Made by a program: the position numbers and the translations under genes. The notes below the pieces were generated by a model that searched no databases, was not told the DNA's origin, and worked only from the letters and a program-made list of their open reading frames with translations. Positions 7,860-22,636 of a DNA stretch of 25,646 nt are shown here, one piece after another (positions within the stretch are counted from its first letter, which is position 1; each line of letters opens with the position of its first letter). Where the stretch lies: NCBI GenBank assembly GCA_946886255.1, contig CAMPIG010000019.1:1-25646 (forward strand). Reading direction: 5' to 3'. The DNA is from an uncultured Cellvibrio sp. (GTDB lineage Bacteria > Pseudomonadota > Gammaproteobacteria > Pseudomonadales > Cellvibrionaceae).

Positions 7860-7873
7860 TATCGAATTCCGTC

Positions 7874-7905
7874 TGTAGGTCGGATTAGCGTAGCGTAATC
7901 TGACA
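7874..7905 (+). repeat. REP-like palindromic repeat
   Basis: This unit starts TGTAGGTCGGATTAGCGTAG and ends GTAATCTGACA; it is nearly identical to the copies at 165-248 and 2842-2873. It starts fifteen bases after the ubiX stop. One arm carries an unpaired change (TCTGAC instead of TCCGAC), leaving a G-T wobble in RNA. Confidence 0.75.
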
Positions 7906-7932
7906 ACGATCTAACCAACATAATCAACCACT

Positions 7933-8841
7933 ATGGCATTACCCAAATCAGTCAAAATCGTAGAAGTCGGCCCCCGCGATGGTTTGCAAAATGAAAAGCA
8001 AACCATCGCTACCGCGACCAAGATTCAACTCATCAATACTTTGTCAGAAACAGGCCTGTCTTATATCGAAGCCGGCAGTTTTGTAAACCCCAAATGGGTG
8101 CCACAAATGGCCGACAGCGCTGAAGTATTCGGCGGCGCCACTCGTAAAGTCGGTGTGACCTACGCTGCATTGACACCCAACTTGCAAGGCTTCGAGCGCG
8201 CACTCGCCGCACATGTTGATGAGGTTGCGATATTCGCCGCCGCCTCTGAAGCATTCAGCCAAAAGAATATTAACTGTTCTATAGCCGAAAGCCTTACGCG
8301 ATTTACAGCACTGATGGATGCCGCACAACGCCATAACATACCGGTGCGCGGTTACATTTCCTGCGTTGTCGGCTGCCCCTACAGCGGCGCCGTGGAACCG
8401 GAAACGGTTACGCAAATAGCCCGGGACTTACTGGCAATGGGCTGCTATGAAATCTCGCTGGGCGATACGATCGGTATAGGTACCGCCGGGCAAGTCAAAC
8501 GTTTAATTGAGTATCTTATGCAGGATATTCCCGTAGAAAAACTCGCGGTACATATGCACGATACCTATGGACAGGCATTGGCAAATATTTACGCAGCGCT
8601 GGAGTGCGGCGTTAGCGTCGTGGACAGCTCTGTCGCAGGCCTGGGTGGCTGCCCCTACGCGGCAGGCGCTTCGGGCAACGTCGCGACCGAAGATGTGATT
8701 TATTTATTGAATGGCCTCGGCATTGATCACGGTGTCGATCTGGAAAAATTAATTGCCGCCGGCAATAGCATCTGTGAATATCTCGGAAGAACCAATGGGT
8801 CCAAAGTCGCACAAGCTATCACACGGAAATACCAGGCATGA
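7933..8841 (+). CDS. Hydroxymethylglutaryl-CoA lyase
   Basis: This enzyme splits (S)-3-hydroxy-3-methylglutaryl-CoA into acetyl-CoA and acetoacetate, the last step of leucine (and some terpene) catabolism. The 302-residue protein starts with the TIM-barrel motif [11 protein letters not shown], which holds the catalytic Arg-Asp pair. It has [12 protein letters not shown] with metal-ligand histidines. It ends with the signature [21 protein letters not shown], where the conserved cysteine sits. These distinguish it from homocitrate and isopropylmalate synthases. None of the usual leucine-catabolism genes (isovaleryl-CoA dehydrogenase, methylcrotonyl-CoA carboxylase) is adjacent in this window. 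Its stop codon overlaps the next start by 4 nt (ATGA). Confidence 0.95.
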
Positions 8842-9152
8842 TTGATGAATACCTTCCCGATGATATCGTCCAGGCAAAAATAAATCTGGAAACCGCACAA
8901 ATACCCTGGCAAGACCTGCAACGTTTTTTCGCCGGCGGTAAAGCCATTTCCGTAAGTCCAAGCCTGGATCTCACCGAGGTTGCGCGGGTTATTGCCCGGG
9001 ATCAATCCGCACAACTGAAACAGTGGATGGATGCCTCGCTGGTAGATAGTGTGACGGATAAGCAGGCGCAAATCTGGCATGAGCAGAATGCCATGGTCTG
9101 GGCTGTGGTGATAAAGCCTTGGGTACTCGTGCAGGAAGCCCCAAAGGAATAA
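8838..9152 (+). CDS. DUF2288 family protein
   Basis: This small 104-residue protein starts with the ATGA overlapping the HMG-CoA lyase stop, so its translation is probably coupled. The sequence ([53 protein letters not shown]) matches what I recall of the DUF2288 family: soluble and mostly helical, with no known activity. No signal peptide or membrane segment is seen. Overlap with a catabolic enzyme gene does not by itself reveal a function, since DUF2288 genes occur in other contexts. Confidence 0.8.
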
Positions 9153-9221
9153 GCAGCCCTTCATCAAAAGAAAAATCTTTAGCGGTTAATTATTAATAAC
9201 GTTACAAGTCAGGAATTTTAT

Positions 9222-9638
9222 ATGAAGCCCATCTCTGCCGCCGGTGTCGGTATACGTTTTCTTTTCGCGTTGTTGTTAGTGTTCGCCACTTACAACCCCA
9301 GCGGCTATTCTTATTATCACTGGCTCTACGCTAATTGGTCGGCACTTACACCTTACATTGCGCTGGCAGGTTTAATTTTATTGATCGGCTGGGCTATATA
9401 TGTGCGCGCCACTTTGCGTTCATTGGGGTTTGTGGGCTTGATACTGGCGAGTGCATTTTTGGCTTGCCTGGTTTGGTTGTTGGTTTATTGGGGCTGGATC
9501 AAACTGGATAAAGCGGGACCGATCACCTGGATCAGCGAAATACTGGTGGCTGCACTTCTCGCAGCCGGTATGTCCTGGTCCCATATCCGCCGGGCCATGT
9601 CTGGCCAGGTGGATATGGATGATGTGGATGAGAACTGA
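9222..9638 (+). CDS. Small four-helix membrane protein (DUF6524-like)
   Basis: The 138-residue product has four hydrophobic segments: about residues 8-22, 40-60, 67-88 and 102-118. It starts MKPISAAGVGIRFLFALLLV and ends in a short acidic tail (MDMDDVDEN-like). The motif ATYNPSGYSYYHWL after the first helix is the most recognisable part and recalls the DUF6524 family. No enzymatic residues are evident. ATG 9222 is preceded by CAGGAATT. The gene runs into a perfect inverted repeat that contains its own stop codon and faces the convergent TerB-like gene. Confidence 0.75.
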   Translation: MKPISAAGVGIRFLFALLLVFATYNPSGYSYYHWLYANWSALTPYIALAGLILLIGWAIYVRATLRSLGFVGLILASAFLACLVWLLVYWGWIKLDKAGPITWISEILVAALLAAGMSWSHIRRAMSGQVDMDDVDEN

Positions 9639-9652
9639 CAGGTCAGTTCTCA
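9629..9652. terminator. Bidirectional hairpin between convergent genes
   Basis: TGAGAACTGAC (9629-9639) and GTCAGTTCTCA (9642-9652) form an 11-bp perfect inverted repeat with a 2-nt centre. It includes the stop codon of the membrane-protein gene and ends 14 bp before the stop of the TerB-like gene on the other strand. No strong T-run follows on either side, so termination efficiency is uncertain. Confidence 0.55.
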
Positions 9653-9665: not shown

Positions 9666-9905
9666 TCACTGTCCTACCTTCGCGCTGATTTCCGCCAGCT
9701 TTTGACGCATCGCGTCATCTACTTCATGCGGTTTGATGCGCGAAATAATGTTTCGCAGAACTCGTATTTCATTTTGATCAATCACACCATCCTTCTCTGC
9801 GATGGCCAGAATTTTTCCCAGTTCATGCGCGTCCAGTTTTCCATCATTTGAAAAACACTGAATGGATTGAAACGACATTTCCAAATAATCGCGATTTTCA
9901 CTCAT
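9666..9905 (-). CDS. Small TerB-like acidic helical protein
   Basis: This 79-residue protein is the last gene of the minus-strand stress operon. It has FSNDGKLDAHELGKIL and AEKDGVIDQNEIRVLRNI: two repeats of a (N/K)DGxxDxxEL/I pattern that recalls TerB-type tellurite-resistance folds and also EF-hand loops. TerB domains are larger (over 100 residues), so this is at most a minimal version, and calcium binding through EF-like loops is an alternative. A good ribosome site (AGAGGAAG) precedes ATG 9905. TerB-family proteins are known to travel with membrane-associated stress systems, which fits the neighbours. A hairpin at 9945-9968 may reduce read-through from the upstream genes. Confidence 0.6.
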   Translation of the reverse strand: MSENRDYLEMSFQSIQCFSNDGKLDAHELGKILAIAEKDGVIDQNEIRVLRNIISRIKPHEVDDAMRQKLAEISAKVGQ

Positions 9906-9944
9906 CGTTGACTTCCTCTGCTGTTGAAAAAATATTATTTACCG

Positions 9945-9968
9945 GCAAGAGACCTATGCGTCTCTTGC
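9945..9968 (-). terminator. Internal hairpin, possible attenuator
   Basis: GCAAGAGAC (9945-9953) pairs with GTCTCTTGC (9960-9968) around a 6-nt loop, between the PLD-type gene and the TerB-like gene. On the transcribed minus strand the hairpin is followed by CGGTAAATAATATTTTTTC. The T-run comes about ten bases late for a classical terminator. Partial termination or a 3'-protecting hairpin are both possible. Confidence 0.45.
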
Positions 9969-9981
9969 CTCTCTGGGGCTG

Positions 9982-10671
9982 TCAGACAGAAAAACTTTCC
10001 CACAAGGATTCAAACTCCATCTGATACGCGGCCACCAACGCGGGCTCGTTAGTTACCAGAATATTTTCATGGTTTTTATCTGACGCACTGCGTGTCCAGT
10101 TGAAACTGCCATTGACCAGCGTGTGACGGTCGATGATAGCGAATTTATGATGCATATGGTGCTCGGTGTTATCCATCCTGACAGAAATTCCTTGCGCGGC
10201 CATATGCTCTACATCGCTGCCAAGATCCAGCGACTTATCATTATCCGTCAGTATCCGTACCGACACCCCGCGTTGATGTGCATCGCAAATAGCATCACAC
10301 AAACGATCATCAGAAATGGTGAACACACTGATATCGAGAGACTGTCGCGCGCTGACACATAGGTCCAACAGCTTTCGGCGGCAATCGTCACCGGGGCTGA
10401 AGTGAGCACTATTCACAATGACCACTTGCGCATTGCGCGCCGTGTCCATGGTCTTCACGATTTTATCCAGCCACCCAAGAACGGCGATAGCAACATCACC
10501 GCCTTGCTTTATCGGTTCGCGCGCCAAGGCAAAGGCTTTGTTACGAATAAAACTGGTTTCATCCGCTTGCAATTGCGGCAATATTTCACGGAGCGCCAGG
10601 GTCTCCGCATGGCTTAATTTAAAATCGTCCAGGCTTTCTGTTAACCAGGATTCCAATTCATCCAGACGCAT
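9982..10671 (-). CDS. Single-HKD phospholipase D-family protein
   Basis: The 229-residue product carries one complete HKD motif: H174-x-K176-x4-D181, then NGSFNWTRSASD. This makes it a PLD-superfamily phosphodiesterase resembling Nuc nucleases and mitochondrial PLD6/Zucchini. With one motif per chain it should act as a homodimer. The substrate could be phospholipid (cardiolipin) or nucleic acid; the sequence does not decide. The N-terminal about 80 residues (LDELESWLTESLDDFKLSHAE onward) are helical and of no family I recognise. There is no signal peptide, so it is probably cytoplasmic or membrane-peripheral. It begins two bases after the rhomboid stop, showing it belongs to the same transcript. 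Confidence 0.85.
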   Translation of the reverse strand: MRLDELESWLTESLDDFKLSHAETLALREILPQLQADETSFIRNKAFALAREPIKQGGDVAIAVLGWLDKIVKTMDTARNAQVVIVNSAHFSPGDDCRRKLLDLCVSARQSLDISVFTISDDRLCDAICDAHQRGVSVRILTDNDKSLDLGSDVEHMAAQGISVRMDNTEHHMHHKFAIIDRHTLVNGSFNWTRSASDKNHENILVTNEPALVAAYQMEFESLWESFSV

Positions 10672-10673
10672 AG

Positions 10674-11243
10674 TCAGATCCTTTTACGTATACCAAAAAA
10701 GCCCTTTGCATTGAGAAAGGCGCAGTAAAAACCCATCAAAGCACCGAACAAATGCGCCTCGAATGAAATACGCGCATCCGTAGGCAGCACGCCGTAGATC
10801 AAACCACCATAAAAAAGCGCAACAAACAAGGCGATCAAAATATTAATAAATCGCCGCTCAAACCAGGCGGTAGCAATGCATAGACTCCACAAACCAAACA
10901 CCCATCCACTCGCACCGATGTGAGTTGCCGGACGACCAAATAGCCAGACCAGGACGCCGCCTGCCACAATAATAAACAAGCTGTTAAGCAGGTAACGCCG
11001 AATCGAATGCACCAACACCAGGGCGCTGAAGATACAAAAACCCACCAGATTATTCAGCAGGTGCGCCGTGTTGCCATGCAGAAACGGCGCGGTAAATACA
11101 GTCCATAGGCTATCCAGGTGCCGTGGATATATACCAAACCGATTTAACTGATAATTCAGCAAAACATTCACGACATGCACGCCAATCATGAGCGCGCATA
11201 AATGCAGTATCAGTTTGAATTTATCGGGTATCTTTTTTGTCAT
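10674..11243 (-). CDS. Rhomboid-family intramembrane serine protease
   Basis: This 189-residue polytopic membrane protein has the rhomboid core. HGNTAHLLNNLVGF holds the oxyanion His/Asn pair (H61, N65), HIGASGWVFGLW holds the nucleophile Ser112 in GASG, and FEAHLFGALMGF holds the general base His164. Around six hydrophobic segments are visible. All catalytic residues are intact, so it should cleave membrane proteins within the bilayer. The start at 11243 lies nine bases after the ATPase stop, with a 13-bp tandem duplication over the junction and no convincing ribosome site. Translation is therefore probably coupled to the ATPase. In a flotillin/PspA operon it may play the part that NfeD-type proteases play beside other stomatin-family genes. 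Confidence 0.92.
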   Translation of the reverse strand: MTKKIPDKFKLILHLCALMIGVHVVNVLLNYQLNRFGIYPRHLDSLWTVFTAPFLHGNTAHLLNNLVGFCIFSALVLVHSIRRYLLNSLFIIVAGGVLVWLFGRPATHIGASGWVFGLWSLCIATAWFERRFINILIALFVALFYGGLIYGVLPTDARISFEAHLFGALMGFYCAFLNAKGFFGIRKRI

Positions 11244-11260
11244 TCGAGTTTGTCATTCGA
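11236..11260. repeat. 13-bp tandem duplication at the ATPase/rhomboid junction
   Basis: TTTGTCATTCGA occurs at 11236-11247 and again at 11249-11260, a 13-bp period. On the coding strand each copy contains GAATGACAAA. The upstream copy holds the ATPase stop (GAA-TGA) together with an overlapping ATG that leads into the wrong frame. The downstream copy holds the rhomboid ATG. Confidence 0.8.
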
Positions 11261-14200
11261 AATCTTTCTGGTCATGTGCGATCTTTTTTGTCGAACCTTT
11301 CGATGGCTTTCCGGCAACTTCCGCCTCCAGCTGACGAAGCTGTACCAGAACATCTTGCATCTTCTCGTGGGTACGTAAATCAATATCCAGCTTTTTATCC
11401 ATGCTGCGCACCAGTGGAAAGATGCTAATTTCAATCGTTTGTGCCAGGATGCGCAGGATTTTATCGATTCCGGGTACCGGTTGGTTAATCACTTCCACCT
11501 TGGGCGGCTGAACCGCACTTTTTTCACTTATGCTTTCCAGTAATAGTGCAATCCGCTGCAGCGAAGAACCGAAGTCGTCGTCGGGCTTTTTAACCTGATT
11601 GCCAGCCACAACCTGAGCGGTTGCGCCCAAATGTTTTATATTTTCCACCAGGTCGGCCAGTTGCACGACAACGCGCGCACCCACATCAGCATCTGCACCA
11701 CCAATCGCTTTATTACGCAGGAAGTCTTTCTTGATCTGTTCCCAACGAGCTTTCTGTTCGGCCGTCATATTGCCACGCAATTCGGCCAGTTTAAGCAGGT
11801 TACTTTCTGCGCCGGTGGTCAACAACTGCGCCTCGCCCAGATAGTGATCAGCAATCATTTGCATCATTTCATTTTCATTCATGACGGCCGATACTTTCTC
11901 GGTCATCTTATTCATGTTGCGATAACTGCCTTGCAACTTGAATGGCGGCTCCATGCGATATTTGTCATCCTGCGCAGCCGAGGCGATGTACTGTTGGTTG
12001 ATCTTCAGGACGACGTCCTGAATGACGAATAATTTTTTCATTACCGCCGTGATTTCATTAATCTCCGCACCGCTGTATTGATGACGCAAATCGGTGGTAG
12101 CTACCTGCTCGCCCTTGGCCATTCGAATGAGTTTATACACATCATCCATATCGCGTAACGCAAGCGGAGCCAGCACAGGATTGGAGGTCATGGCATTCTC
12201 GATGTAACTCAACGCAAACTGTTCCTCCATACCACCGAGAATGTCACCCAAGTTGTAAATATCCGCCCGGTTGGCCAGCATGTCGGGCACTTTGAAAGCC
12301 TCACCGGTTTCGGTATAAGGATTGCCCGCCATCACCACACAGAATTTCTTGCCGCGCATATCGTAGGTTTTGGTTTCGCCTTTCCATACACCTTCGATAC
12401 GACGCGAACCGTCGCACAACGAAATAAATTTTTGCAAAAATTCTGAATGCGTGTGTTGGATGTCATCGAGATAAAGCATCACGTTGTTACCCATCTCCAG
12501 TGCCAGGTTCAATTTATACAGCTCCTGACGGGAGGTAGAGTTCGGTGCTTGCTCCGGGTCCAATGACAATACATCGTGGCCTAAAGAGGGACAATTGATC
12601 TTCATAAAAATCAGCCCGAGGCGGTTCGCAACATATTCCATCAAGGTCGTCTTACCGTAGCCCGGTGGTGAGATCATCATCAACAAGCCCATAAGATCGG
12701 TACGCTTATTCTCACCGAGCGATCCCATTTGTTTCGCCAGGTTATCACCGATAATCGGCAGATAAGATTCGTTGATTAATCGGTTACGTACAAACGAGCT
12801 CAGGGGTTTGGCTTTGAATGTATCCAGACGCAACAGCTTTCGCTCTTCGTTAACGATGTCCTGGCGGATCTGTAAATAACGCTGGTAGCCGGGCACAACT
12901 ATTTGGTGATGATGTTCAAGACGCTGCAAAAAATCATCCAGCGAATAAACCAGACGGCGCTCACTCAGCGTCACATGTTCACCGAGTAATCCTTCCACGG
13001 TCAGCTCAAGATCTACTTCTGTGAAACGCCGGTCCAGTCGCTCATCAGCATTGATCAACGCAACCGCTTCGGGAATATAACGCGCGATCTTGTGCAGTTG
13101 TTTTTGTTGAACGAGCGCATGCAACCAGGTATTCGTGAGCTTCCAACGTTCCGCAGGCCAGCCATGCATTTTTTCCAAGGCACTGTGAAACTGCCGCCAG
13201 GTGGCATCCTCTAGCGATTGCTTCAGCTCATCGAGCAGTTGTCGGGCATATTTGCTGCCAATAAATTCTGTCCGTTCACGCGTAAGCTCCTCAACCAGGT
13301 ACTGCGCCGCACGTTGAATGCTTACTTGATCCGCTGGCAGCGGATGCTGGCCCACGTATCCGGTTAAACAATCGGTCACTTCTGCCACAAGATCATTTAA
13401 TGCCTGTGATTGGCCAAAGGTTAGTTGTATTTGTTTGGCAGACTGCGCGCGCTCTTTCCAGGTATCGTGAGGAATAGGATCACGCCCCGGACTGACTTTG
13501 GGTTTGCGTTGGTAACTGCTATTAATATTGGCCCAGAAAATTTGCGCAACGGCGCGACTTAACGGATCGAACCTCAACAGGTCCGCACGATCAATTGCTG
13601 GAATCAATGCCTTAAGTAAAAGCGTGGCATCGTGATCGTGGATACCTTTTTGATAGCCTTCTTTGTAACGCGGTGCGGCGAATTCACGCACCAGTTTCAG
13701 CAGTTGCTCATCATCCAGAAGCGCTTGGTGCAGCTTATCCCAACTCAAATTTTCGCCATTTTCCTGGGCCGCCTTGAGTATGAGGGATGCCAGATACTCC
13801 GCTCGGTAAACCTGTTCCGACTCTGACGCCTGCACCATGCTCCAGAATTCCCGCAGAGCTAACAACTCGGCATGCTTGACTGGCTCAAAATAATGGGTAC
13901 CGGTGAGATGAATATTCAATTCGCCTTCACGCGGAATAATGGTCAGGTCAAGCTCCTGGGTGTTGACACTGAATTTATGTCGCGGCCCTAACTTGATGAC
14001 ATTGCCGCCCTCTTCAAAGATATCGGTCTTGTCGCGCAATGCCCGCAAAGCCTGACCTTTCACCGCCTTGAAGCGGGAATCGAGATCATCAGCCGCAATC
14101 GCGTTATCAAGTTCGCGCAATTGTTCAACCAAATCGCGAACCTTCAGCACCAGCGCATCCGATGCAAAATAGGTATTCAATTCGTCTGGTTTAGTCAGAC

Positions 14201-16580
14201 TAAGCGAGCGCTTCTCAATACTTTTTAATATTCTGGAGGCTGCATCGGTAACGGTTTGGGCTTTCCGCTGCCGCTCGTCCAGCAGGCGTTGTTTATGCTC
14301 CTGAAAGGATTCATAAACCTCTTCACGCTTACTCATGATGTCCGCGAGGAACTGATCATACTCGCTGAACTGCCCTTCGATTTCTTCGAGCTGCACCAGG
14401 GTTCGCGACAGTTGTTCATCGCAACGATCCGGTGTAGTCGACAGGCTCAGCGCATGGGTGATGCTTTGCGAGAAGAGTTTAAATTGTGCGGCAAACTGGG
14501 CAACTGCTTCAGCGGAACCAAAGTTTTTCTCCCGGTGCCGCGCGTTGGCTTTGCTTTGATTCAGGCGGGAATAGACTTCCGAGATCGCATCAACAATACG
14601 CGTGCGCACTGTCGCGTCCTGTACTTTCAGGGTGCCCATCAACTCCGATAATAAGTCCAGCCCCGCCGCGGTAGATTCTATAACTTCCAAAACCGGTGCC
14701 AGGGTTGCACTGGTTGTCGCCAGTTCAATATCGTTATTGATGGACTCTATTTTTTGTAGATAGGGCGTTAATGCCTGCTCGTCAGACAGAAAATGAACCG
14801 TCTGTTCGCTCAAATTATCATTGATGTCCGCGAGCTGTTTATCCAGCTCGGCAATGCGCGCGTTATCGATGTAGCGATACTCGCGAATAGTCGCCAAGTG
14901 GCCACGCTGTTTGCGCAGACGACTCAAAGCGTCCACGTACTCCTCTGCCAGGGTCCAATTTTCTGGCCGCACGGATTGGAGTAAACGCTCCTGCTCGGCC
15001 TCCGCTTGGGTCATGGCTTTGGCGGACTGTTGTCGAATACTTTCAACTTTTTCAAACTCATCGATCACCAGCTCAGCGGTGGCAGCAATATCTTTCATTA
15101 CCGCCGCAATCGCCTGGGTTTCGCTTTCATTCACCCAGTAGTAGCTATCAAAGATTTTCCTGGCCGCAATACTCAACTCTTCATACAGGCGCAACGAAAC
15201 CGATTGGTTATTGATCAAGCGCGCGATGCTGTAGAAATCAGAAATACCGCGCACTAATTCGGTATTTCCGATGCGCCCATAAAAGGTCTGACTCGCTGGC
15301 GCTTGACTGGCATATTCAACGCTTTGATAAGGCGTCTGCCAGATTTGCATGGGATGCACACGTGTGGGCTCTTTTTCAGCAGAGAAAATAACAACCTTGC
15401 CATCCTCAGAGAGCGCATAGCCGTTGCCAAAAATAGGATTCTGTAACACCTTCTGAATCAGGTTGTAAGCGAAGAGCCCGACGATACCATCTGCCGGTTC
15501 ATAGAAAATATAAAGCACGTCTTCGCCATTGGGCGAGTGAATCATGCGCTTGAAACGAAACGCCTGGGTATCTTCGTCGAAGGTTTTATATTCACCCGAT
15601 TGCAGGTAATAGCCGCCGGGAAAGATGATGCCGTGATTTTCAGGTAACTGCACACAGGAATTGCCCAGCTGATCCATACGCACGACGGTTTGCGTCATCG
15701 TATTAAAAATCAGGTAACGCCATTGTTCCTCGCGATACGGACGAATTTTTAACAGGATTAAACTACCCACAGCAGCGTAGGCAACATCGGCGTCATCAAG
15801 GGATTGTGTTTTATCTTCCACTGGTTCGCGATAAATGCCCAATCCGTCTTCAGTATTATTTTCAACCTTGATAGTCAGATCCCCACCAATGGTTTCAACA
15901 AAAACCTTATCCAGAATATTAAGGTGAGGATGTCGCCCATGGACAGCATGTTCGCGCGTGGCTGTCACCCATTCAAAATCGTATGCGGGAGGCAACTCGA
16001 TGTCTCGCTCGCCGCGATTATCAATATATTTGACCTGCTTCCCGTCAGGTGACAACGACCAGCGAAATACGCGGATATCGTCGAGCCGCTCACCAATTTG
16101 AAATCCGGCTAATAATTTCCCATGATTGATACTGAGCTTGATGAGCTTGGTGTGCTTGTAGTAACGATAAAGCTCTTCAAAATCATTAACGAAGCCTTGC
16201 TCAGATAAGAAGGCGTTGGCCAATGGAATTTCATCCATCTCATAGCCATCATCCGCCTTACGTGCAGTAAAGAGTGCAAATACGTCTTCAACACGGGTTT
16301 CTTTTTTTAGCCCGATAAATACGTTGTAGCCAAACAGCAGATAGTCGCCTACCTGGACAATATCGCGTGGAATGCAATTATTTTCAGTGCGCACCCGGAC
16401 TCGCGCAATCACACTCATTTCGGACGTGCCGAACTCTTCGAGACGCGCTTCGTTTAGCGCACGTATGCGTGCCTCGAGAGTGTGCCCCTGCTCCAGCAAA
16501 CGCTTGCGGATAATCTCATAAGCGCCACCTTCTGCAACGGCGTTGTCGACGAGTTCATTGGCAGGGGCTTGCTGCACCAT
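11253..16580 (-). CDS. Giant AAA+ ATPase (DUF3686 / 'DNA repair ATPase' type)
   Basis: This protein of about 1775 residues is the centrepiece of the operon. Counting from ATG 16580, residues about 1-480 contain propeller-like repeats (SLSPDGKQVKYI, IHSPNGEDVLYI, YALSEDGKVVIFS). Residues about 500-900 are rich in heptad coiled coil. The AAA+ domain lies at about 1270-1500, with Walker A SPPGYGKTT (K1310), Walker B VMLYLDDIQ (D1372, D1373), a sensor-1-like VVMAGNP, and a candidate arginine finger in MLANRADIYNL. The last about 100 residues are charged and again helical. Database entries for this type are often named DNA repair ATPase or DUF3686; I see no nuclease or helicase motif supporting DNA repair. 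ATG 16580 has AAAGGA seven bases upstream; the earlier in-frame ATG at 16607 has none. Likely a membrane-associated remodelling ATPase, by context. Confidence 0.85.
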   Translation of the reverse strand: MVQQAPANELVDNAVAEGGAYEIIRKRLLEQGHTLEARIRALNEARLEEFGTSEMSVIARVRVRTENNCIPRDIVQVGDYLLFGYNVFIGLKKETRVEDVFALFTARKADDGYEMDEIPLANAFLSEQGFVNDFEELYRYYKHTKLIKLSINHGKLLAGFQIGERLDDIRVFRWSLSPDGKQVKYIDNRGERDIELPPAYDFEWVTATREHAVHGRHPHLNILDKVFVETIGGDLTIKVENNTEDGLGIYREPVEDKTQSLDDADVAYAAVGSLILLKIRPYREEQWRYLIFNTMTQTVVRMDQLGNSCVQLPENHGIIFPGGYYLQSGEYKTFDEDTQAFRFKRMIHSPNGEDVLYIFYEPADGIVGLFAYNLIQKVLQNPIFGNGYALSEDGKVVIFSAEKEPTRVHPMQIWQTPYQSVEYASQAPASQTFYGRIGNTELVRGISDFYSIARLINNQSVSLRLYEELSIAARKIFDSYYWVNESETQAIAAVMKDIAATAELVIDEFEKVESIRQQSAKAMTQAEAEQERLLQSVRPENWTLAEEYVDALSRLRKQRGHLATIREYRYIDNARIAELDKQLADINDNLSEQTVHFLSDEQALTPYLQKIESINNDIELATTSATLAPVLEVIESTAAGLDLLSELMGTLKVQDATVRTRIVDAISEVYSRLNQSKANARHREKNFGSAEAVAQFAAQFKLFSQSITHALSLSTTPDRCDEQLSRTLVQLEEIEGQFSEYDQFLADIMSKREEVYESFQEHKQRLLDERQRKAQTVTDAASRILKSIEKRSLSLTKPDELNTYFASDALVLKVRDLVEQLRELDNAIAADDLDSRFKAVKGQALRALRDKTDIFEEGGNVIKLGPRHKFSVNTQELDLTIIPREGELNIHLTGTHYFEPVKHAELLALREFWSMVQASESEQVYRAEYLASLILKAAQENGENLSWDKLHQALLDDEQLLKLVREFAAPRYKEGYQKGIHDHDATLLLKALIPAIDRADLLRFDPLSRAVAQIFWANINSSYQRKPKVSPGRDPIPHDTWKERAQSAKQIQLTFGQSQALNDLVAEVTDCLTGYVGQHPLPADQVSIQRAAQYLVEELTRERTEFIGSKYARQLLDELKQSLEDATWRQFHSALEKMHGWPAERWKLTNTWLHALVQQKQLHKIARYIPEAVALINADERLDRRFTEVDLELTVEGLLGEHVTLSERRLVYSLDDFLQRLEHHHQIVVPGYQRYLQIRQDIVNEERKLLRLDTFKAKPLSSFVRNRLINESYLPIIGDNLAKQMGSLGENKRTDLMGLLMMISPPGYGKTTLMEYVANRLGLIFMKINCPSLGHDVLSLDPEQAPNSTSRQELYKLNLALEMGNNVMLYLDDIQHTHSEFLQKFISLCDGSRRIEGVWKGETKTYDMRGKKFCVVMAGNPYTETGEAFKVPDMLANRADIYNLGDILGGMEEQFALSYIENAMTSNPVLAPLALRDMDDVYKLIRMAKGEQVATTDLRHQYSGAEINEITAVMKKLFVIQDVVLKINQQYIASAAQDDKYRMEPPFKLQGSYRNMNKMTEKVSAVMNENEMMQMIADHYLGEAQLLTTGAESNLLKLAELRGNMTAEQKARWEQIKKDFLRNKAIGGADADVGARVVVQLADLVENIKHLGATAQVVAGNQVKKPDDDFGSSLQRIALLLESISEKSAVQPPKVEVINQPVPGIDKILRILAQTIEISIFPLVRSMDKKLDIDLRTHEKMQDVLVQLRQLEAEVAGKPSKGSTKKIAHDQKDFE

Positions 16581-16626
16581 TTTATGATCCTTTAAATCCA
16601 GTGGCATCTTGGGGAAATAGCGAGGC

Positions 16627-16659
16627 GAGCTTCACCGCTGAATCACAACGGTGAAGCTC
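16627..16659 (-). other. Intercistronic hairpin between flotillin and ATPase genes
   Basis: GAGCTTCACCG (16627-16637) and CGGTGAAGCTC (16649-16659) form a perfect 11-bp stem with an 11-nt loop, 16 nt after the flotillin stop on the transcribed strand. No T-run follows. It looks like an mRNA processing or stabilising stem, or a weak attenuator that would set the ATPase level below that of flotillin. Confidence 0.6.
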
Positions 16660-16674
16660 CAGGCATGATAATAA

Positions 16675-18651
16675 TTACTCTTGAACCACATCCGCCTTGA
16701 CAGGCTCAGCTGCTTTACCTTGTACCAGCCGATCCAATACTGCAGTTAATACGCCGCTCTTGCTGGCGAGGCCGTCAATCGCCTTGCCAATAGACAGGGA
16801 CTTGGCAAAGTTATCAAAGAAATGTGCTTCACCACCAACGATATCGATATGCGCTTTCTGCAATGCAATTGCCAGAACCTCCGCATTTTCCTTGGCGATT
16901 TCCTTACCGGCTTCAATACTTGCCAGAGCTTCCTTGAAGGCGGTTTCCAGACTCATGCGGAATTCTTCGTGCTCACGCGCCTGCGCACTCATCGCATTCA
17001 TCGCATCAAACTTCTCAACCAAACCGGCTGCTTCAGCTTTGAACTTCTCGCGCGTTACATCCGCTTCGGCCAAGCCAACATCTTTGCGCGCCTTGGCTTC
17101 CGATGTACCTTTCGCAGCGATAACCTCCGCTTCCGCCATACCCTTGGCATTAATCACTTCTGCTTCAGCTTTGCCTGCATCCGCTTCTGCTGTGCCTTTC
17201 ACACGAATCACATTGGCTTGAGCAACGCCTTCTTTCTCCAAAGCATCGGCTTTGGCTTCCTGAACCTTGGCATCTGCAAGTCCTGGCGCAGCGCGTTCAG
17301 CCTGGATACCTTCAGCCATTTTCTTCATCGCTTCAGCCTCCTTGGCAGAAGCATCCAGCTTGGCTTGTGCAATAGTCGTAATCTCTACCGCTTTATGCTT
17401 GGCAGACAACTCTTCTGCTTCGGCCGCTTTTACTTGTTTAACTTTCTCTTCATCGGCTTTAGCTTCTGCCGCCAACACCTGCACTTGTTTCTTGCGATCG
17501 GCATCGGACACTTCACGCACTTCTTTAATACGCTCTTCTTCAATGGCCACTGTCTTATCGACCACTACCCGCTCGCGAATAACATTGGCAATTTCTTTCT
17601 TCTGTATTTCAATAGCCTTTTCAGCTTCAATCGTTTGCAGCTCTACCTCGCGCTTGCGCGCAACAATTTCGAGCTCGCGAGCTCGCGTAACCTTTTCTTC
17701 CTCAATAGCGACTGCACGCAGACGATTCTGCGCAGCCACTTCAATCTCCCGTTGCTGATTTTCCGTCTGTACGGACAACTCTTGAGCAACCTGAATCGCA
17801 GTCTGTTCGTATTTTTTACGCTCTTCTTCCTGAACCTTTTTTGTTTCCGCCTCTTCGCGCGCACGAATGGTGGCAATTTCACGTTGCTGACGGGCTTCCG
17901 CATCCGCTTGCTGACGATCCAACTCCAACATAGCCTCTGTGGTTTCTACATTTTTCTTCTTGATTGCCAGCTCTTCATCACGTTCGAGGATGTTGGTACG
18001 GACATTTTGCGCAGCTGTCAGCTCAGTGATCTTCTTGATACCTTCGGCATCAAGAATATTGTGAGGGTCAAGGGAGGATTTCGGCGTTTGTTCGATATAG
18101 TCGATAGCCACGTCTTCCAGCACATAGCCGTTCAAATCATCGCCAATAACCTGGATAATTTTTTCACGAAACTGCAAACGATTTTCAAATAACTGAACAA
18201 ACTCAATTTGCTTGCCGACAGTCTTTAAAGCTTCAGAGAACTTTGCTGAAAAAAGCTTATCCACGGCCTCTATGTCAGACGCGCGATCAGCACCAATAGA
18301 TTTGGCAACCCGCAACACATCCTCTGCCGTTTCATTAACGCGCAAATAAAATGCTACGCTGATGTCAGCGCGCATATTATCTTTACAGATCAGGCCATCA
18401 CGCCCACGGCGATCCACATCCAATGTAATCAATGAAATATTCATTAATTCTTTTTTGTGGATAATCGGGTATACCAGCGCGCCGGTAAAATGAATCTTGG
18501 GTGTTGAGCTCATGTCATTAACAATAAGCGCAGTGCCTTGGGCGACTTTTATGTAAAACAGCTTATAAAAGAAAGCTAACCCAAGGATGATTAATACAAT
18601 AATTCCTACACCCAGAATAATAGGGGATGCAATGGCCAAGTCGATGTTCAT
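16675..18651 (-). CDS. Flotillin-family band-7 protein (YqiK-like)
   Basis: The protein has an N-terminal membrane segment (about residues 10-32, IILGVGIIVLIILGLAFFYK). The SPFH/band-7 domain follows (about 35-210, from KVAQGTALIVNDMSSTPKIHF). Then comes a very long charged coiled coil (about 230-560) ending in alternating Ala-Glu repeats (AEADAGKAEAEVINAKGMAE), as in flotillins. Flotillins form large oligomers that organise membrane microdomains. At 658 residues it is about 100 longer than E. coli YqiK (553 as I recall), mostly in the coiled coil. A GTG at 18657 is in frame but lies against the AAAGGAG site; ATG 18651 sits five bases after it and is preferred. It follows a YqiJ-like gene, the same pair as E. 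coli yqiJ-yqiK. Confidence 0.93.
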   Translation of the reverse strand: MNIDLAIASPIILGVGIIVLIILGLAFFYKLFYIKVAQGTALIVNDMSSTPKIHFTGALVYPIIHKKELMNISLITLDVDRRGRDGLICKDNMRADISVAFYLRVNETAEDVLRVAKSIGADRASDIEAVDKLFSAKFSEALKTVGKQIEFVQLFENRLQFREKIIQVIGDDLNGYVLEDVAIDYIEQTPKSSLDPHNILDAEGIKKITELTAAQNVRTNILERDEELAIKKKNVETTEAMLELDRQQADAEARQQREIATIRAREEAETKKVQEEERKKYEQTAIQVAQELSVQTENQQREIEVAAQNRLRAVAIEEEKVTRARELEIVARKREVELQTIEAEKAIEIQKKEIANVIRERVVVDKTVAIEEERIKEVREVSDADRKKQVQVLAAEAKADEEKVKQVKAAEAEELSAKHKAVEITTIAQAKLDASAKEAEAMKKMAEGIQAERAAPGLADAKVQEAKADALEKEGVAQANVIRVKGTAEADAGKAEAEVINAKGMAEAEVIAAKGTSEAKARKDVGLAEADVTREKFKAEAAGLVEKFDAMNAMSAQAREHEEFRMSLETAFKEALASIEAGKEIAKENAEVLAIALQKAHIDIVGGEAHFFDNFAKSLSIGKAIDGLASKSGVLTAVLDRLVQGKAAEPVKADVVQE

Positions 18652-18716
18652 AGTCACTCCTTTTTTCTTTTTACCAATATAAATAGATCAAATGTAAATA
18701 GTGTCGCTATCGGCCA

Positions 18717-19397
18717 CTACAATGAAGGTTTCCCCAGAAACTCCTGTTCTGAGATAACACGATACACATACAGCTCTGGCAAATATTCCAGCAATACAAC
18801 ACGGTCACCACGATGGAATTCTGTGTTCCCCATAGCGCGTGCCTTAAGAATTAATCCTGCACCGCCATCTGCCAGCGTGACCTCACCAAATTGTGCATTG
18901 ACAACCGATGAGCGAACGATAGCTACCTGCCCCAAAACGCGCTTTATCGTTTCCTGCTGGGTCTTATGAAAAAACGGCCGTAGTGGCTTAATGACCAGAG
19001 CCGTCAACATGACGCCGATATACAACGACCCCGCCAGCGCAGGTAAACCCAGCAATAAACGAAGGAAACCCGAGGAAAACAAAGGCGTTAAAAAATACAC
19101 CAGGTAGTAGCAGATCAACCACCCGAAGAGCACCACCAGACTAATAATGATCGTCACCGGCACGCCGTGCAATCCGAACCGCATCATAAGGCCCGTCAAT
19201 GCATTGGCGTTGGAGATATCACCCTCAGCACTGATGTCCATATCAAAATCCAGCAATGAGATATCAAACACACCGAGTATGGTGAACAACCAGTAAATCA
19301 CTACAACGATCAGCAGTATCGTGAAGAATATCGTCGGAAATGAAGCCACAATCTGGTAGAACGGCCTCATCCCTTCACTCAAGAGAACCGCGAACAT
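18717..19397 (-). CDS. YqiJ-like inner-membrane protein with OB-fold C-terminus
   Basis: This 226-residue membrane protein carries hydrophobic segments at about 15-40, 73-97, 98-115 and 122-140 and a soluble C-terminal domain from about 155. The latter (LGQVAIVRSSVVNAQFGEVT, GNTEFHRGDRVVLLEY) has the beta-rich look of the NfeD/YqiJ OB-fold. Proteins of this type pair with flotillins or stomatins and probably anchor or regulate the band-7 oligomer. A GTG at 19403 opens the frame but lies inside AGGAGGTG, an excellent ribosome site for ATG 19397 five bases later, so the ATG is the start. Downstream there is a 65-nt gap to the flotillin start. Confidence 0.85.
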   Translation of the reverse strand: MFAVLLSEGMRPFYQIVASFPTIFFTILLIVVVIYWLFTILGVFDISLLDFDMDISAEGDISNANALTGLMMRFGLHGVPVTIIISLVVLFGWLICYYLVYFLTPLFSSGFLRLLLGLPALAGSLYIGVMLTALVIKPLRPFFHKTQQETIKRVLGQVAIVRSSVVNAQFGEVTLADGGAGLILKARAMGNTEFHRGDRVVLLEYLPELYVYRVISEQEFLGKPSL

Positions 19398-19440
19398 CTT
19401 CACCTCCTGTTTATTCGATGAGCAATGGCTGGCGATTATC

Positions 19441-20133
19441 TTACGATGATTTTTTGTTCTTCAGGCGAGTCAAAATATCATCCACGCTCGCCCCGTTAGG
19501 CGCGATACCGGCCGCTTCAAGTTTTGCTTGCAATGAGAACTCGGGGGTATCCTGAGCCAATTCGCTGGCAGCGCTGATCTGTGCATCTTTCAGCGCTTGC
19601 CTTTCTTTAATGCGCTCAAGTGAGTCCATGGCGGTGCGCAGCTTTGAGTTGGAGCCACTATGACGCTCAGCAACGGCCGATTGCGCGCGCTGTACATTTT
19701 CTGTGGCCTTGACCGTATCCACCTGCTGTTTTAAGCGCTTGATATTTTTCTCGGCTTGCTGAATAGCAAAACGTAATTTGGTCGCGCTTTCTGCATAACC
19801 CTCGTGTGCTTCTTGCTCCGAAGCCAGCTGATTTTCCAGTTCGGCAACTTTTTCGGCCACCTCTCGAGCCAGCGGCTCATCGCCCTTCTCAAGTGCTTTC
19901 AGCGCATAACCTTCGTGCTCTTCAATGGCCTTTTTGTTTTTTTTGCACTTTTCTTCAGCCAGTTTCTGGCGCGCCATAATTTCTGCCAGACTGTCTTTGG
20001 AACGCTTCAACTCTTCCGAAGCGTCACGCACCTCTTGATCCAGAATCCGCAATGCCTGGCTGTCAACAACAGCTTCACCGGCTTCATTTACACCACCGCG
20101 CAGGGCGGTAATCATCTTTGCCCAGATATTCAT
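19441..20133 (-). CDS. PspA/IM30-family protein (YjfJ-like)
   Basis: The 230-residue product is almost entirely helical coiled coil, with the PspA/IM30 start MNIWAKMITALRGGVNEAGE followed by EVRDASEELKRSKDSLAEIM. PspA and IM30/Vipp1 bind stressed inner membranes and assemble ESCRT-III-like rods or rings. The length equals that of E. coli YjfJ (about 232 as I recall), and YjfI-YjfJ order is the same as here. The C-terminal part (PEFSLQAKLEAAGIAPNGAS) is a YjfJ-type tail rather than classical PspA. Its ribosome site AAGGGGTG overlaps the stop codon of the YjfI-like gene, so translation is probably coupled. No PspF or PspBC gene is nearby, so regulation differs from the E. coli psp operon. Confidence 0.93.
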   Translation of the reverse strand: MNIWAKMITALRGGVNEAGEAVVDSQALRILDQEVRDASEELKRSKDSLAEIMARQKLAEEKCKKNKKAIEEHEGYALKALEKGDEPLAREVAEKVAELENQLASEQEAHEGYAESATKLRFAIQQAEKNIKRLKQQVDTVKATENVQRAQSAVAERHSGSNSKLRTAMDSLERIKERQALKDAQISAASELAQDTPEFSLQAKLEAAGIAPNGASVDDILTRLKNKKSS

Positions 20134-20143
20134 AACTCACCCC

Positions 20144-20785
20144 TTAAGCTGCAACAGATTCTTTTAAATACTCGCTGTAGGCCTCAGTAGCCTGAATAAC
20201 GTTGGAAGCGAGCACTTCAATTTCAAAAAGTACATTCTGCAAGCTCGATGCGGAACTCAAGGCACCGAACATGTGATAACAATCGTCGCCATCCATATGA
20301 TCAAGACTGATCGTGGATAACGGAAAATATTTGTGCGTACGCAATACCGCCTCATTAAAACGGTCCGCATTTTTTACATCAGAAGCAGACCACAACATAG
20401 CTTCCACGATGATTTGCTCTCCCGATACCGTGAGAAAAACGGGTAAATCTCCATAATCAAACATCACTATGTGCAAAGCCGGGGAGACCCCGTCAATCAA
20501 TTCCACCTCGGCACGCTTACCAACAAACATATCTGCCTTATAAAGTGCTTCGTATAGACTTGTCGTAGTCCAGCGAGTCATATTGTCTGTCATTGGTTGT
20601 TCTCCTTTCATGAGAGTAGAGCCATTGGTTGAAAGCAGCCCCAAGGGTTCGCGCAATTCCTTCTCGTATGCCGTGAGCTGGGCCGTATTTTCCGGAAGTA
20701 TCCACACCTCCTTCTTAACCAGGCCCTGTTCGCGCAAACGTTTGCGGTATTCCCGCTGGTAATGTGCTGATGATTTTGGCTGCAT
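20144..20785 (-). CDS. YjfI/DUF2170-family protein with basic N-terminal extension
   Basis: First gene of the operon, 213 residues from ATG 20785 (a GTG at 20794 is also in frame). The C-terminal part from about residue 65 (MTRWTTTSLYEALYKADMFV to LKESVAA) corresponds to YjfI/DUF2170, normally about 130 residues. The extra N-terminus (SAHYQREYRKRLREQGLVKK, EVWILPE) is basic and resembles short ribbon-helix-helix-like DNA-binding segments. It could bind the paired palindromes just upstream, which is inference. An internal ATG at 20593-20591, in frame, has AAAGGAG eight bases upstream, a better site than that of the first start. A short YjfI-only product of 149 residues (MTDNMTRWTT) may therefore also be made. 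The molecular function of DUF2170 is unknown. Confidence 0.85.
   Translation of the reverse strand: MQPKSSAHYQREYRKRLREQGLVKKEVWILPENTAQLTAYEKELREPLGLLSTNGSTLMKGEQPMTDNMTRWTTTSLYEALYKADMFVGKRAEVELIDGVSPALHIVMFDYGDLPVFLTVSGEQIIVEAMLWSASDVKNADRFNEAVLRTHKYFPLSTISLDHMDGDDCYHMFGALSSASSLQNVLFEIEVLASNVIQATEAYSEYLKESVAA
20591..20609 (-). promoter_or_regulatory. Strong internal ribosome binding site in the YjfI-like gene
   Basis: On the minus strand AAAGGAG is followed by AACAACCA and ATG (20593-20591), in frame with the YjfI-like gene at codon 65 counted from ATG 20785. The site is closer to consensus than the one before the first start. It supports a second, shorter protein or a mis-assigned first start. 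Confidence 0.6.
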
Positions 20786-20803
20786 GAAAGGCACTCTACT
20801 CTC

Positions 20804-20851
20804 TTACATGTAATGAGTCAAAATATTACATGTAATAAATCAATCACAGAA
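20804..20851 (-). promoter_or_regulatory. Operon promoter with two TTACATGTAA operators
   Basis: Two identical perfect palindromes TTACATGTAA lie at 20804-20813 and 20826-20835, centres 22 bp apart (two helical turns). A plausible minus-strand promoter has TTCTGT as -35 (20846-20851), a 17-bp spacer and TAATAT as -10 (20823-20828). This puts the start near 20816, between the palindromes. One palindrome overlaps the -10 and the other covers the first transcribed bases, which suits repression. The regulator is not known; the basic N-terminus of the first gene product is a candidate. Confidence 0.6.
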
Positions 20852-20974
20852 CGTCTTATGCAAACGATTGATTCGTAACGTATTAACAACGGCAGAGAGG
20901 AAAAACCGTTGATTTTAATGTCGTTTAGACATTCTTATAGGAGATTAAATAACAAAAAGATCTAGGAGTCGCTT

Positions 20975-21559
20975 TCATTGCTTCTTATGGTGCAACTCCC
21001 AGTTCTCCAATTTCTTCCGCTCACTTTTCCGCAGCAACACATAGGTCGCTCCACCGGCGCCATGCTGTTTCTGGGCAGAGTGAAACGCGAGTATTTCCGG
21101 AAATTGAGGCAACCAGTGCGCAACGCAGCTCTTTAGTAGTGCCGGCTGCTCACGCCCCTCACCTTTACCGTGAGTAATCAACGCACAGCGAATGTCGTTG
21201 GCCATGCAATCCCTGATAAATTGATATACCGCCAGGCGCGCCTGCTCGACCTTCATCTGATGCAGGTCGAGGCGCGCGTCGATTTGGTATTTACCCAGTC
21301 GCAAGTTTCTATAGACTCCGTGCTGCACACCGTCGCGCTTGAATTCCAATATGGATAAAGGATCAACCGGCTCAACATATTCCCCCGAGAGAAAGTTTTT
21401 GTCGCGCGGCCCTTCAGCGAGAGCGGCCTTGCGGCGGGAGCTAGCGTTCAATTTGTCGGCATGACCAGGCGCCAGGGGAACCGTCTCCGGCACCCGGATT
21501 GGCTCGACATCCCGCATCTGTTTTGTGAACAACTCGTGATCTTTGTCTTTCTCGTTCAT
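20975..21559 (-). CDS. smrA: Smr-domain protein, SmrA-like endonuclease
   Basis: The 194-residue product has a poorly conserved N-terminal region, with a DUF-like block around residues 40-90 (DKNFLSGEYVEPVDPLSILE), and a C-terminal Smr domain (about 92-185). Smr motifs are LDLHQMKVEQAR (97-108), LITHGKGEG (128-136) and HSAQKQHGAGGATYVLLRK from 160. Stand-alone Smr proteins of this size in gammaproteobacteria (E. coli YdaL/SmrA) have DNA-nicking or RNA endonuclease activity. The in-frame TTG at 21562 is ignored, because ATG 21559 follows GGAGG eight bases upstream. It is upstream of the stress operon on the same strand. The 190-bp gap between them contains the operon's own promoter, so it is probably a separate unit. 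Confidence 0.88.
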   Translation of the reverse strand: MNEKDKDHELFTKQMRDVEPIRVPETVPLAPGHADKLNASSRRKAALAEGPRDKNFLSGEYVEPVDPLSILEFKRDGVQHGVYRNLRLGKYQIDARLDLHQMKVEQARLAVYQFIRDCMANDIRCALITHGKGEGREQPALLKSCVAHWLPQFPEILAFHSAQKQHGAGGATYVLLRKSERKKLENWELHHKKQ

Positions 21560-21609
21560 CAACCCACCCTCCAGCAGCGAAGCCGCGCTTTTAAATCATG
21601 CGCAGCCGC

Positions 21610-21615
21610 TATAAT
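21610..21615 (+). promoter_or_regulatory. Perfect TATAAT -10 before the GGDEF gene
   Basis: TATAAT at 21610-21615 points toward the degenerate GGDEF gene. The -35 region (GCTTTT at 21587-21592) is poor. Transcription from here would give a leader of about 105 nt. Confidence 0.4.
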
Positions 21616-21726
21616 CGACTACAGCTATCGTTCAACTCTTCGATGGCACTCGACTTATTATGCCCGAGATGATTCAGCGCAAGCCATGCTGAATTTACTG
21701 TTGTTTTCCCACACATCGGTGAAGCT

Positions 21727-22623
21727 ATGTGGAGTAATTTTTCTATCGCACTGGTCACCTTGCTGCTGGTACTGGTTGCAGTTTTTCTGTGGGCCGTGGC
21801 TGTGTTTGCCGCAGGCGACGGTATTCCGCTGGGCAACGTTGATATGCATTTGGCGATTCGCAACCTGTTCTTCTGTCTCGCCGCCTTCATTTTGTTGTGC
21901 ATCACAGCACAGCTACCCATCCGCCGCCCTATTATCGTCAAGCTGATGGTGGGTTTCGGCTTGCTGTTTCTCGGCGCCTGGCAAGAACTGCTCAACACAC
22001 TGGTCCACAGCGATTGGCTGCTGGTACGCTGGCTAGAGATGGTGGGCTTGCCCGGTGGAACACTGGCCGCATCGCTGGGTCTGTTTGAATTGGGCAAAGC
22101 TTATCGATTGAACCGCCTTTTATTGGGGAGTTATCGCAAGATTGAGCATAGCCTGGCGACGGTGGATCAATTAACCCAGCTATATAATCGTCGCTATTTT
22201 TTTGCTACTTGCCCGGATTTAATGCTATCCACCCAACATCACGACGAGACGGCTGCACTGATTACCCTGCGTATCGCCAACCTGCAGGAAACCAATCGCA
22301 ATCTGGGATATCAGGCTGGCGACGCCGTATTGACCCAGGTGGCTCGTGTATTACTTCGCCACACGCGCAGCCATGACATCGCCGCTCGCCTCAGCGGGCG
22401 CCGGCTCGCGATGTTTTTACCCAATACCACCCCCAAAGATGCCGAAGAAATCGTGCAACGGCTGCTCATGCATGTGGAACATATTGGAATCACGAATGAT
22501 GCGGGGGAGGAGATTGTCCAGCGAATCGATATTGAATATGTCGTCTGTTGTGCCGAAACGGGAGAGACGTTCGAGGAATTAATGCAGCGAGCACGCCGAA
22601 ATTTATTGATGCTTGAGCATTAG
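21727..22623 (+). CDS. Membrane protein with degenerate GGDEF domain
   Basis: The N-terminal half holds about four membrane helices (residues 6-29, 46-63, 70-90 and 104-122), a short cytoplasmic helix follows, and a GGDEF fold runs from about 143 to the end. The linker motif DQLTQLYNRR (147-156) is intact. The metal-binding LDID-type motif is LRIA (181-184), and the GGDEF motif itself is SGRRL (223-227), so diguanylate cyclase activity should be lost. The inhibitory I-site RxxD is kept as R214-S-H-D217, exactly five residues before the active-site position. The protein is therefore likely a membrane-bound c-di-GMP receptor rather than an enzyme; this is inference. The start ATG 21727 follows GGTGAAG. 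The gene is divergent from smrA and ends in the terminator shared with acs. Confidence 0.85.
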   Translation: MWSNFSIALVTLLLVLVAVFLWAVAVFAAGDGIPLGNVDMHLAIRNLFFCLAAFILLCITAQLPIRRPIIVKLMVGFGLLFLGAWQELLNTLVHSDWLLVRWLEMVGLPGGTLAASLGLFELGKAYRLNRLLLGSYRKIEHSLATVDQLTQLYNRRYFFATCPDLMLSTQHHDETAALITLRIANLQETNRNLGYQAGDAVLTQVARVLLRHTRSHDIAARLSGRRLAMFLPNTTPKDAEEIVQRLLMHVEHIGITNDAGEEIVQRIDIEYVVCCAETGETFEELMQRARRNLLMLEH

Positions 22624-22636
22624 CAGACTGTTAACT

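Follow-up and report, generated by a model that had tools for sequence, protein, structure and literature searches.

How is a PspA operon switched on when no PspF is found beside it? The question is raised by a stretch of 25,646 nucleotides (nt) from an uncultured Cellvibrio sp. of the Cellvibrionaceae (GenBank assembly GCA_946886255.1, contig CAMPIG010000019.1, positions 1 to 25,646 of the forward strand), hereafter the window, in which eight minus-strand genes run head to tail from position 20794 to position 9666. These encode, in order, YjfI, PspA, a membrane protein in the position of YqiJ, a flotillin, a large AAA+ ATPase, a rhomboid protease, a hydrolase with a single HKD motif and a helical protein of 79 residues, and a Pfam scan of 20 proteins of the window, a subset of its open reading frames, gave no match to the PspB, PspC or PspF of the classical pspFABC system. 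An original prediction, drawn from the letters of this DNA, had taken the cluster for a PspA/flotillin/AAA+ membrane-stress module, which is the right reading; it had overlooked the operators described below and, in YjfI, a segment of DNA-binding-like character. It appears fairly probable, judging from sequence comparisons, that this is a self-repressing envelope-stress module of PspA type, in which YjfI would most likely act as the autorepressor and is probably coupled to PspA.

Palindromes ahead of yjfI and the N-terminal segment of its product

The first gene, yjfI or bacA-type (20144-20785, minus strand), encodes 213 residues when read from the ATG at 20785, with an alternative GTG start at 20794. 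Its product matches DUF2170 in Pfam (3.2e-52) and, with 312.3 bits over positions 1-205 of the 206 in the profile, exceeds the equivalog cut-off of 300 bits set for the NCBIfam BacA model NF050185. Ahead of DUF2170 lies a basic N-terminal segment (approximately residues 1-45; 20651-20785, minus strand), about 45 residues long, in which K, Y, Q, R and W positions are invariant across 31 aligned sequences. The AlphaFold model gives this segment a helix (residues 6-19), a coil and a second helix (31-45) with moderate confidence, whilst the linker has a predicted local distance difference test score (pLDDT) below 50 and the CesT/Tir-like fold mostly scores around 90. The solved BacA chain 8Q8O (146 residues) covers residues 74-212 of the 216-residue form of YjfI, so that the N-terminal segment is absent from it, and the text of the paper on that structure does not contain the words "DNA-binding", "ribbon" or "palindrom".

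Two exact copies of the palindrome TTACATGTAA are present in the window, both upstream of yjfI on the minus strand. Operator 1 (20826-20835), at a distance of 50 bp from the yjfI ATG, lies 5' of the -35 element of a predicted σ70-like promoter (TTGACT-17-TAGAGT; 20793-20821, minus strand), and operator 2 (20804-20813), 28 bp before the ATG, fills the spacer between the -35 and -10 elements. Since promoter scores barely exceed expectation, the call of this promoter rests on its place between the operators and not on its score: a scan of the window gave 18 promoter-like sites where 14.1 were expected, and the best-scoring promoters of 66 yjfI upstream regions averaged 9.17 of 12, against 8.33 in mononucleotide-shuffled sequence, a small excess. 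In these 66 regions the best-scoring promoter carried an operator in its spacer in 33 cases, overlapped an operator in 24 and missed the operators in nine. Shine-Dalgarno-like sequences are rare (5/66), and the -10-like hexamer of the window ends only 7 nt before the ATG (20786-20792 lying between), so that the yjfI mRNA may be nearly leaderless. A σ54 pattern with 7 of 10 matches occurred in a single one of the same regions, among which the Pseudomonas aeruginosa promoter is not included, and 55 of the 66 held none with the GG/GC core.

The pairing of segment and palindromes recurs in related loci. The AAA+ protein was searched against genome contigs, and the best 80 of 291 relatives were kept; 146 loci, the window included, were reduced to 126 non-redundant ones and these to 96 with full flanks, 20 being dropped as redundant and 30 for short flanks or a broken AAA frame. 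This sample was gathered through the AAA gene and is biased towards close relatives of the window. Among the 126 non-redundant loci, yjfI lies on the AAA strand in 67, on the other strand in four, and is missing from 55. Taking as criterion at least two TTACATGTAA-like sites with no more than one mismatch within 200 bp upstream, all 55 loci whose yjfI bears the segment carry the sites (48 of them with an exact one), where 0.028 matches per shuffled upstream region are expected. Within the 1.19 Mb of these 55 loci, 80 of the 81 exact copies of TTACATGTAA fall upstream of yjfI, and the pair is kept in 43 of 43 representatives after clustering at 80% YjfI identity. By contrast, only one of the 12 loci without a readable segment meets the criterion, namely L198, where frame changes in the record disrupt the genes.

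A probable exchange of the regulator together with its operator

The strongest argument for the YjfI segment as a DNA-binding part is that two regulators go with two operators in one kind of operon. In 13 of the 96 full-flank loci YjfI is short, and all 13 encode a separate protein with two ribbon-helix-helix (RHH)-like repeats, recognised by eye, whereas the same gene is found in none of the 48 loci with segment-bearing YjfI and in two of the 35 without yjfI; three examples of this RHH-like protein gave no Pfam match above cut-off. The operator changes with the protein: a second palindrome, GACATNNTATGTC, stands exactly matched upstream in 13/13 short-YjfI loci and in 0/48 segment-bearing ones, whilst pairs of TTACATGTAA occur in 0/13 and 47/48, respectively, the exception being taken as L033, which has an open frame beginning far upstream and shows both sites when the count is based on the start. 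Three genomes have the two regulators together, each at its own locus (L247-L249 with L152, L156 and L157), one with short YjfI, the RHH-like gene and GACATNNTATGTC, the other with segment-bearing YjfI, PspA and TTACATGTAA.

These correlations might be explained differently, if the TTACATGTAA palindromes served another regulator (or if YjfI were an activator), the segment did something else and the co-occurrence reflected shared ancestry, which we consider unlikely. The relatedness of the loci and the failure of the segment to reach any Pfam cut-off would fit that explanation, and the place of operator 1, ahead of the -35 element, would be compatible with activation as well. Moreover, one operon has lost yjfI and kept the sites: a genome-wide search, confined to exact tandem pairs of TTACATGTAA, found them in 11 of 22 operon-bearing genomes, in ten at the operon promoter, and in the eleventh (G626) the operon L186, without yjfI, retains, before pspA, the promoter and two copies of TTACATGTAA, one of them exact and the other with a single mismatch. 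The same genome holds another tandem pair at L255:8691-8731, with no match to the operon profiles within 19 kb. However, the sites track the segment and not the operon. In a further set of genes, several of them closely alike, all 11 segment-bearing yjfI genes have the sites, and seven of these belong to yjfI-pspA pairs with no flotillin or AAA gene in the stretch fetched; on plasmids, where five of 77 records with a YjfI match were examined, the three segment-bearing yjfI genes from Pseudomonas carry sites at approximately -96, -72 and -28. Short YjfI, on the other hand, goes without them not only in the 13 full-flank loci but also in 0/7 cases of the further set, E. coli included, and in 0/2 on plasmids, of which L295 is a doubtful control, as a similar in-frame stretch precedes the stop upstream of its annotated start.

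As for the sign of regulation, a site within the -35/-10 spacer fits repression, and so does the behaviour of the related bacABCDEF operon of P. aeruginosa, in which, as reported, reverse transcription PCR gave a product at each gene junction and insertion in bacA raised the other Bac proteins 6.1- to 13.5-fold (PMC10948618). Repression rather than activation is proposed on account of this rise. The same source states an interaction between BacA and BacB as unpublished.

Several observations nevertheless weigh against self-repression through YjfI. The loci are related, so that their counts are not independent. The segment reaches no Pfam cut-off, its best match being a weak one to the MazE-like family PF11455 (14.6 bits against 22, E 0.03), and the monomer model is helix-coil-helix with moderate confidence; for these reasons the term "DNA-binding" rests on the correlation with the operators. 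L254, where yjfI, pspA and rhomboid genes cluster and the N-terminus of YjfI is divergent, has no TTACATGTAA even at two mismatches and may have an operator of its own, and L256, a broken yjfI copy left out of the short-YjfI count, retains a remnant of the segment and no TTACATGTAA sites. Among the 35 loci without yjfI, five carry GACATNNTATGTC, and the RHH-like gene was detected in one of them (L056); in the other four (L032, L036, L046 and L169) GACATNNTATGTC stands upstream with no profile-detected RHH-like gene in the span, and thus the site can stand without a profile-recognised gene. The coupling of PspA to YjfI is one that we infer. With regard to P. aeruginosa, the bacA mutant is a transposon insertion and a σ54 promoter has been proposed for the operon (PMC10948618), a 2008 abstract calls the cluster monocistronic (PMC2587700), and deletion of paFlo3 (bacD) is described as giving a marginal phenotype (PMC13086221).

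Composition and distribution of the operon

The eight genes are, as had been predicted, tightly packed on one strand, with gaps of 10, 37, 59, 67, 9, 2 and 76 bp. Most of their predicted labels held as well, namely DUF2170, PspA, flotillin, AAA+, rhomboid and single HKD, and only two, YqiJ-like and TerB-like, proved weak. The second gene (19441-20133, minus strand, as are all that follow) encodes a PspA/IM30 protein of YjfJ type (Pfam 5.2e-49; 35% identity to E. coli YjfJ over 230 residues). The membrane protein encoded next (18717-19403) has no Pfam match, and BLASTP to E. coli YqiJ is not significant (E 0.35); calling it YqiJ-like is thus a tentative choice, based on its place next to the SPFH gene in 96/96 loci and on the name short NfeD given to the PA14 gene in that place (PMC13086221). 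The flotillin (SPFH) label of the fourth product (16675-18657) draws on a BLASTP match with E. coli YqiK (28% identity over 449 residues, E 3e-43), Pfam lending it no support; a 456-codon open frame antisense to this gene (16822-18192, plus strand) is probably a by-product of coiled-coil composition. The AAA+ ATPase (11253-16607), with 1784 residues, comprises DUF3686, DUF7902 and an AAA domain according to Pfam, which recognises no protease domain in it. Its Walker A motif reads PPGYGKTT in 123/123 sequences. Walker B motifs usually end in DE; this one ends in DD in 123/123, and hydrolysis may therefore be unusual.

The last gene (9666-9905) encodes the 79-residue protein, for which "TerB-like" is a weak label. 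The match to TerB (PF05099) remains at 14.4 bits, below the cut-off of 24.4, and in the 14-member alignment of the family 11 members match TerB at E values up to 1, the best being 0.0026, with EF-hand models about equally strong; some UniRef names read DjlA N-terminal domain. The structure model shows four helices (pLDDT 79).

Clearly, the eight-gene cluster is real and not a chance association, since its yqiJ-flotillin-AAA core is kept in all 96 full-flank loci, themselves collected by the AAA gene. Around this core the composition varies, with pspA and yjfI in 61 loci each, rhomboid in 36, the TerB-like gene in 23, HKD in 16, and all eight together in five; as the gene profiles were built from the loci themselves, distant versions may escape them, and absences are upper bounds. 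Thus the rhomboid, HKD and TerB-like genes, whose restriction to this one genome would have spoken against the original prediction, recur well beyond it. The TerB-like gene changes place, being found either 3' of AAA or in one of two intergenic positions, pspA-yqiJ and flotillin-AAA. A zinc-ribbon gene of zf-TFIIB type (Pfam), absent from the window, lies 3' of AAA or rhomboid in 35 of the 96 loci (e.g., L203:5338-5970 and L176:4860-5414). The close relative G594, which aligns with the window at 91-94% identity in two BLASTN blocks (window 4790-9639 and 9982-24479), has the zinc-ribbon gene and no TerB-like gene, the window showing the reverse.

The flanking genes are housekeeping-like. One flank holds smrA, a GGDEF gene and a gene for acetyl-CoA synthetase; in the opposite flank are DUF6524, DUF2288, HMGL-like, flavoprotein and Mur-ligase genes. 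No Rfam family matched at gathering scores anywhere in the window. In draws of whole genomes, the Pfam family PF12458 occurs in 27 of 194 when these are drawn from the order, in 8 of 398 from the phylum and in 39 of 144 from the family, and the system is therefore patchy.

Such patchiness, together with the HKD gene (9982-10671; PLDc_2 in Pfam, 1.2e-31; motif residues H174, K176 and D181), might suggest a role in defence against phages or in abortive infection, with the HKD protein (as a nuclease) and the rhomboid turning on the cell or its invader once the membrane is damaged. The HKD protein, whose motif is kept in 17/17 sequences, is indeed weakly similar to DrmC and DpdK models, and the related operon of plasmid pQBR103 lies near helicase and methyltransferase genes. 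However, the DrmC score of 50 bits is far from its cut-off of 133, PADLOC matches of the other seven proteins are confined to very weak ones of PspA to JetC (about 15 bits), the neighbours in the window are of housekeeping type, and HKD is present in only 16/96 loci; a defence role thus seems quite improbable, and the self-inflicted attack by rhomboid and HKD enzymes that had been suggested finds no good support. Membership in DISARM was rejected, with DrmC below cut-off and neither DrmA nor DrmB among the eight operon proteins in PADLOC. The best solved relative of the HKD protein is the mitochondrial cardiolipin hydrolase MitoPLD (6e-29), a likeness in sequence that serves as a comparison of possible function and not as a sign of family membership.

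The rhomboid

The rhomboid intramembrane protease (10674-11243; Pfam 7.6e-21) has its predicted catalytic residues at Ser112 and His164, and the serine (in GxSG) and histidine are kept in 40/40 operon rhomboids; an assignment to the rhombosortases (TIGR03902) was rejected at 46.2 bits against a cut-off of 84. In the 36 loci that encode it, the gene follows AAA in 27, AAA plus the TerB-like gene in one and AAA, but on the other strand, in one; it lies between pspA and yqiJ in four and is divergent upstream in three. Its presence tracks that of pspA, with 34 of 61 loci with pspA having it against 2 of 35 without (Fisher p 5.7e-7, uncorrected for relatedness).

Twenty genomes with a rhomboid-bearing operon hold two to eight rhomboids each, 86 in total; the chance of meeting a rhomboid in such a stretch is therefore about 1% by our estimate, against the 36/96 seen. 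In a FastTree phylogeny of 71 rhomboids, which included the 30 best-scoring non-operon ones of the 86, all 41 operon rhomboids fall into one group (support 0.85), joined by a single outsider encoded in an Aliikangiella genome (L282) and with no adjoining pspA, whilst the other 29 non-operon rhomboids form a clade of their own (support 1.0). Judging by gene order and phylogeny, the rhomboid is a genuine member of the operon and represents a dedicated subfamily.

On plasmid pQBR103 (L293, L298) the rhomboid gene lies directly 3' of yjfI-pspA, with genes for an SPFH protein and a "DNA repair ATPase" further along the same strand. This operon unites both types of PspA operon in the order yjfI-pspA-rhomboid-DUF2491-DUF350-DUF1190-glutathionylspermidine synthase-unknown-SPFH-"DNA repair ATPase".

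Relation to known systems

The operon had been thought undescribed as a full set, which is not so. Ravi et al. (2024, mSystems; PMC11237479) describe CesT/Tir(YjfI)-PspA operons with band-7/flotillin, a YqiJ/YuaF protein and an AAA+ protein that has both a coiled coil and a beta-propeller, to which some Proteobacteria add an HKD hydrolase, and thereby cover most of it. The window shares with them YjfI, PspA, flotillin, an AAA+ protein with a long N-terminal region (the beta-propeller being their description) and HKD; their YqiJ/YuaF-type protein with three transmembrane helices has a counterpart by position (96/96), although not by Pfam or BLASTP match. In the main text of that paper the terms "rhomboid" and "Ter" (as a whole word) do not occur, and no operator or DNA-binding role of YjfI was seen there. 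Nor did searches of open-licence PMC papers, supplements excluded, yield among the papers listed an earlier report of the TTACATGTAA or GACATNNTATGTC operators, of YjfI as a repressor or of a rhomboid in PspA-flotillin-AAA+ operons, or any paper on DUF3686. Thus, the operon set is largely described already, and what is new is the membership of the rhomboid, the TerB-like protein and, in relatives, the zinc-ribbon protein in a known operon type, along with the circuit of YjfI segment and operator.

The bac operon of P. aeruginosa (PMC10948618) is a studied relative, sharing the BacA family, a PspA-like second gene and the short NfeD and SPFH genes (PMC13086221). It differs in that the P. aeruginosa BacA chain 8Q8O lacks the N-terminal segment of YjfI and in that a σ54 promoter is proposed there, whereas the window has a predicted σ70-like one. 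Mutants in pA3731 (PMC2587700) and bacA (PMC10948618) of P. aeruginosa are reported as lower in biofilm, swarming and rhamnolipid, which, together with the bac name, could indicate a general regulator operon of biofilm and surface lifestyle with secondary effects on stress. That role is rather improbable, for the set of proteins is of a membrane-remodelling type, deletion of the SPFH gene of the operon is reported to have cut biofilm by only about 20% (PMC13086221), and the amount of PA3731 rose under osmotic shock (PMC2587700). E. coli, too, has the YjfI and PspA pair, in yjfI-yjfJ-yjfK-yjfL-yjfM-yjfC, but its YjfI is short and without TTACATGTAA; in strain K-12 yjfI-yjfJ and yqiJ-yqiK do lie at separate loci, as stated in the original prediction.

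Two further systems resemble the window in layout. The mitochondrial SLP2-PARL-YME1L hub (PMC7966987) likewise brings together an SPFH scaffold, a rhomboid and an AAA+ protein at one membrane, an analogy limited by the absence of a recognised protease domain from the AAA+ protein of the window and, from the hub as described, of PspA and YjfI. In pairs of long NfeD and SPFH proteins (Pyrococcus PH1510/PH1511) a membrane protease is also encoded beside SPFH, and a long NfeD carrying a protease domain reportedly cuts the SPFH protein with which it is paired (cited in PMC13086221); the window has a short protein in the NfeD position and, as a protease apart from it, the rhomboid, which, by analogy, may supply the proteolysis missing from the short NfeD.

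Proposed mechanism and significance

Under self-repression, YjfI dimers would bind the TTACATGTAA palindromes and block RNA polymerase, whilst the chaperone-like CesT/Tir-like domain of YjfI would bind PspA. Recruitment of PspA to damaged membrane would lower the occupancy of the palindromes by the repressor, and the operon would be induced. PspA would then coat and reshape the membrane, the short-NfeD/flotillin pair may form a membrane cage or platform, and at this platform the AAA+ ATPase could remodel PspA or another client and the rhomboid could cleave a membrane protein, with the HKD enzyme and the TerB-like protein as presumed optional accessories.

In a wider and more tentative proposal, which we regard as possible although less probable than self-repression as such, YjfI/BacA would be a new kind of stress repressor, combining a chaperone-like reader of PspA with a DNA-binding segment that can be swapped for an RHH protein with its own operator, and it would control a membrane-repair hub of ESCRT-III-like PspA, flotillin, AAA+ protein and dedicated rhomboid, with a layout comparable to SLP2-PARL-YME1L. 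Self-repression through YjfI, if true, would answer how non-classical PspA operons without PspF are switched on, offering a candidate repressor, operator and promoter, and would explain the rise of the Bac proteins in the bacA mutant, in which case the published BacA structure would lack the regulatory end of the protein. The comparisons also point to a dedicated rhomboid subfamily as partner of PspA operons, whose substrate can now be searched for.

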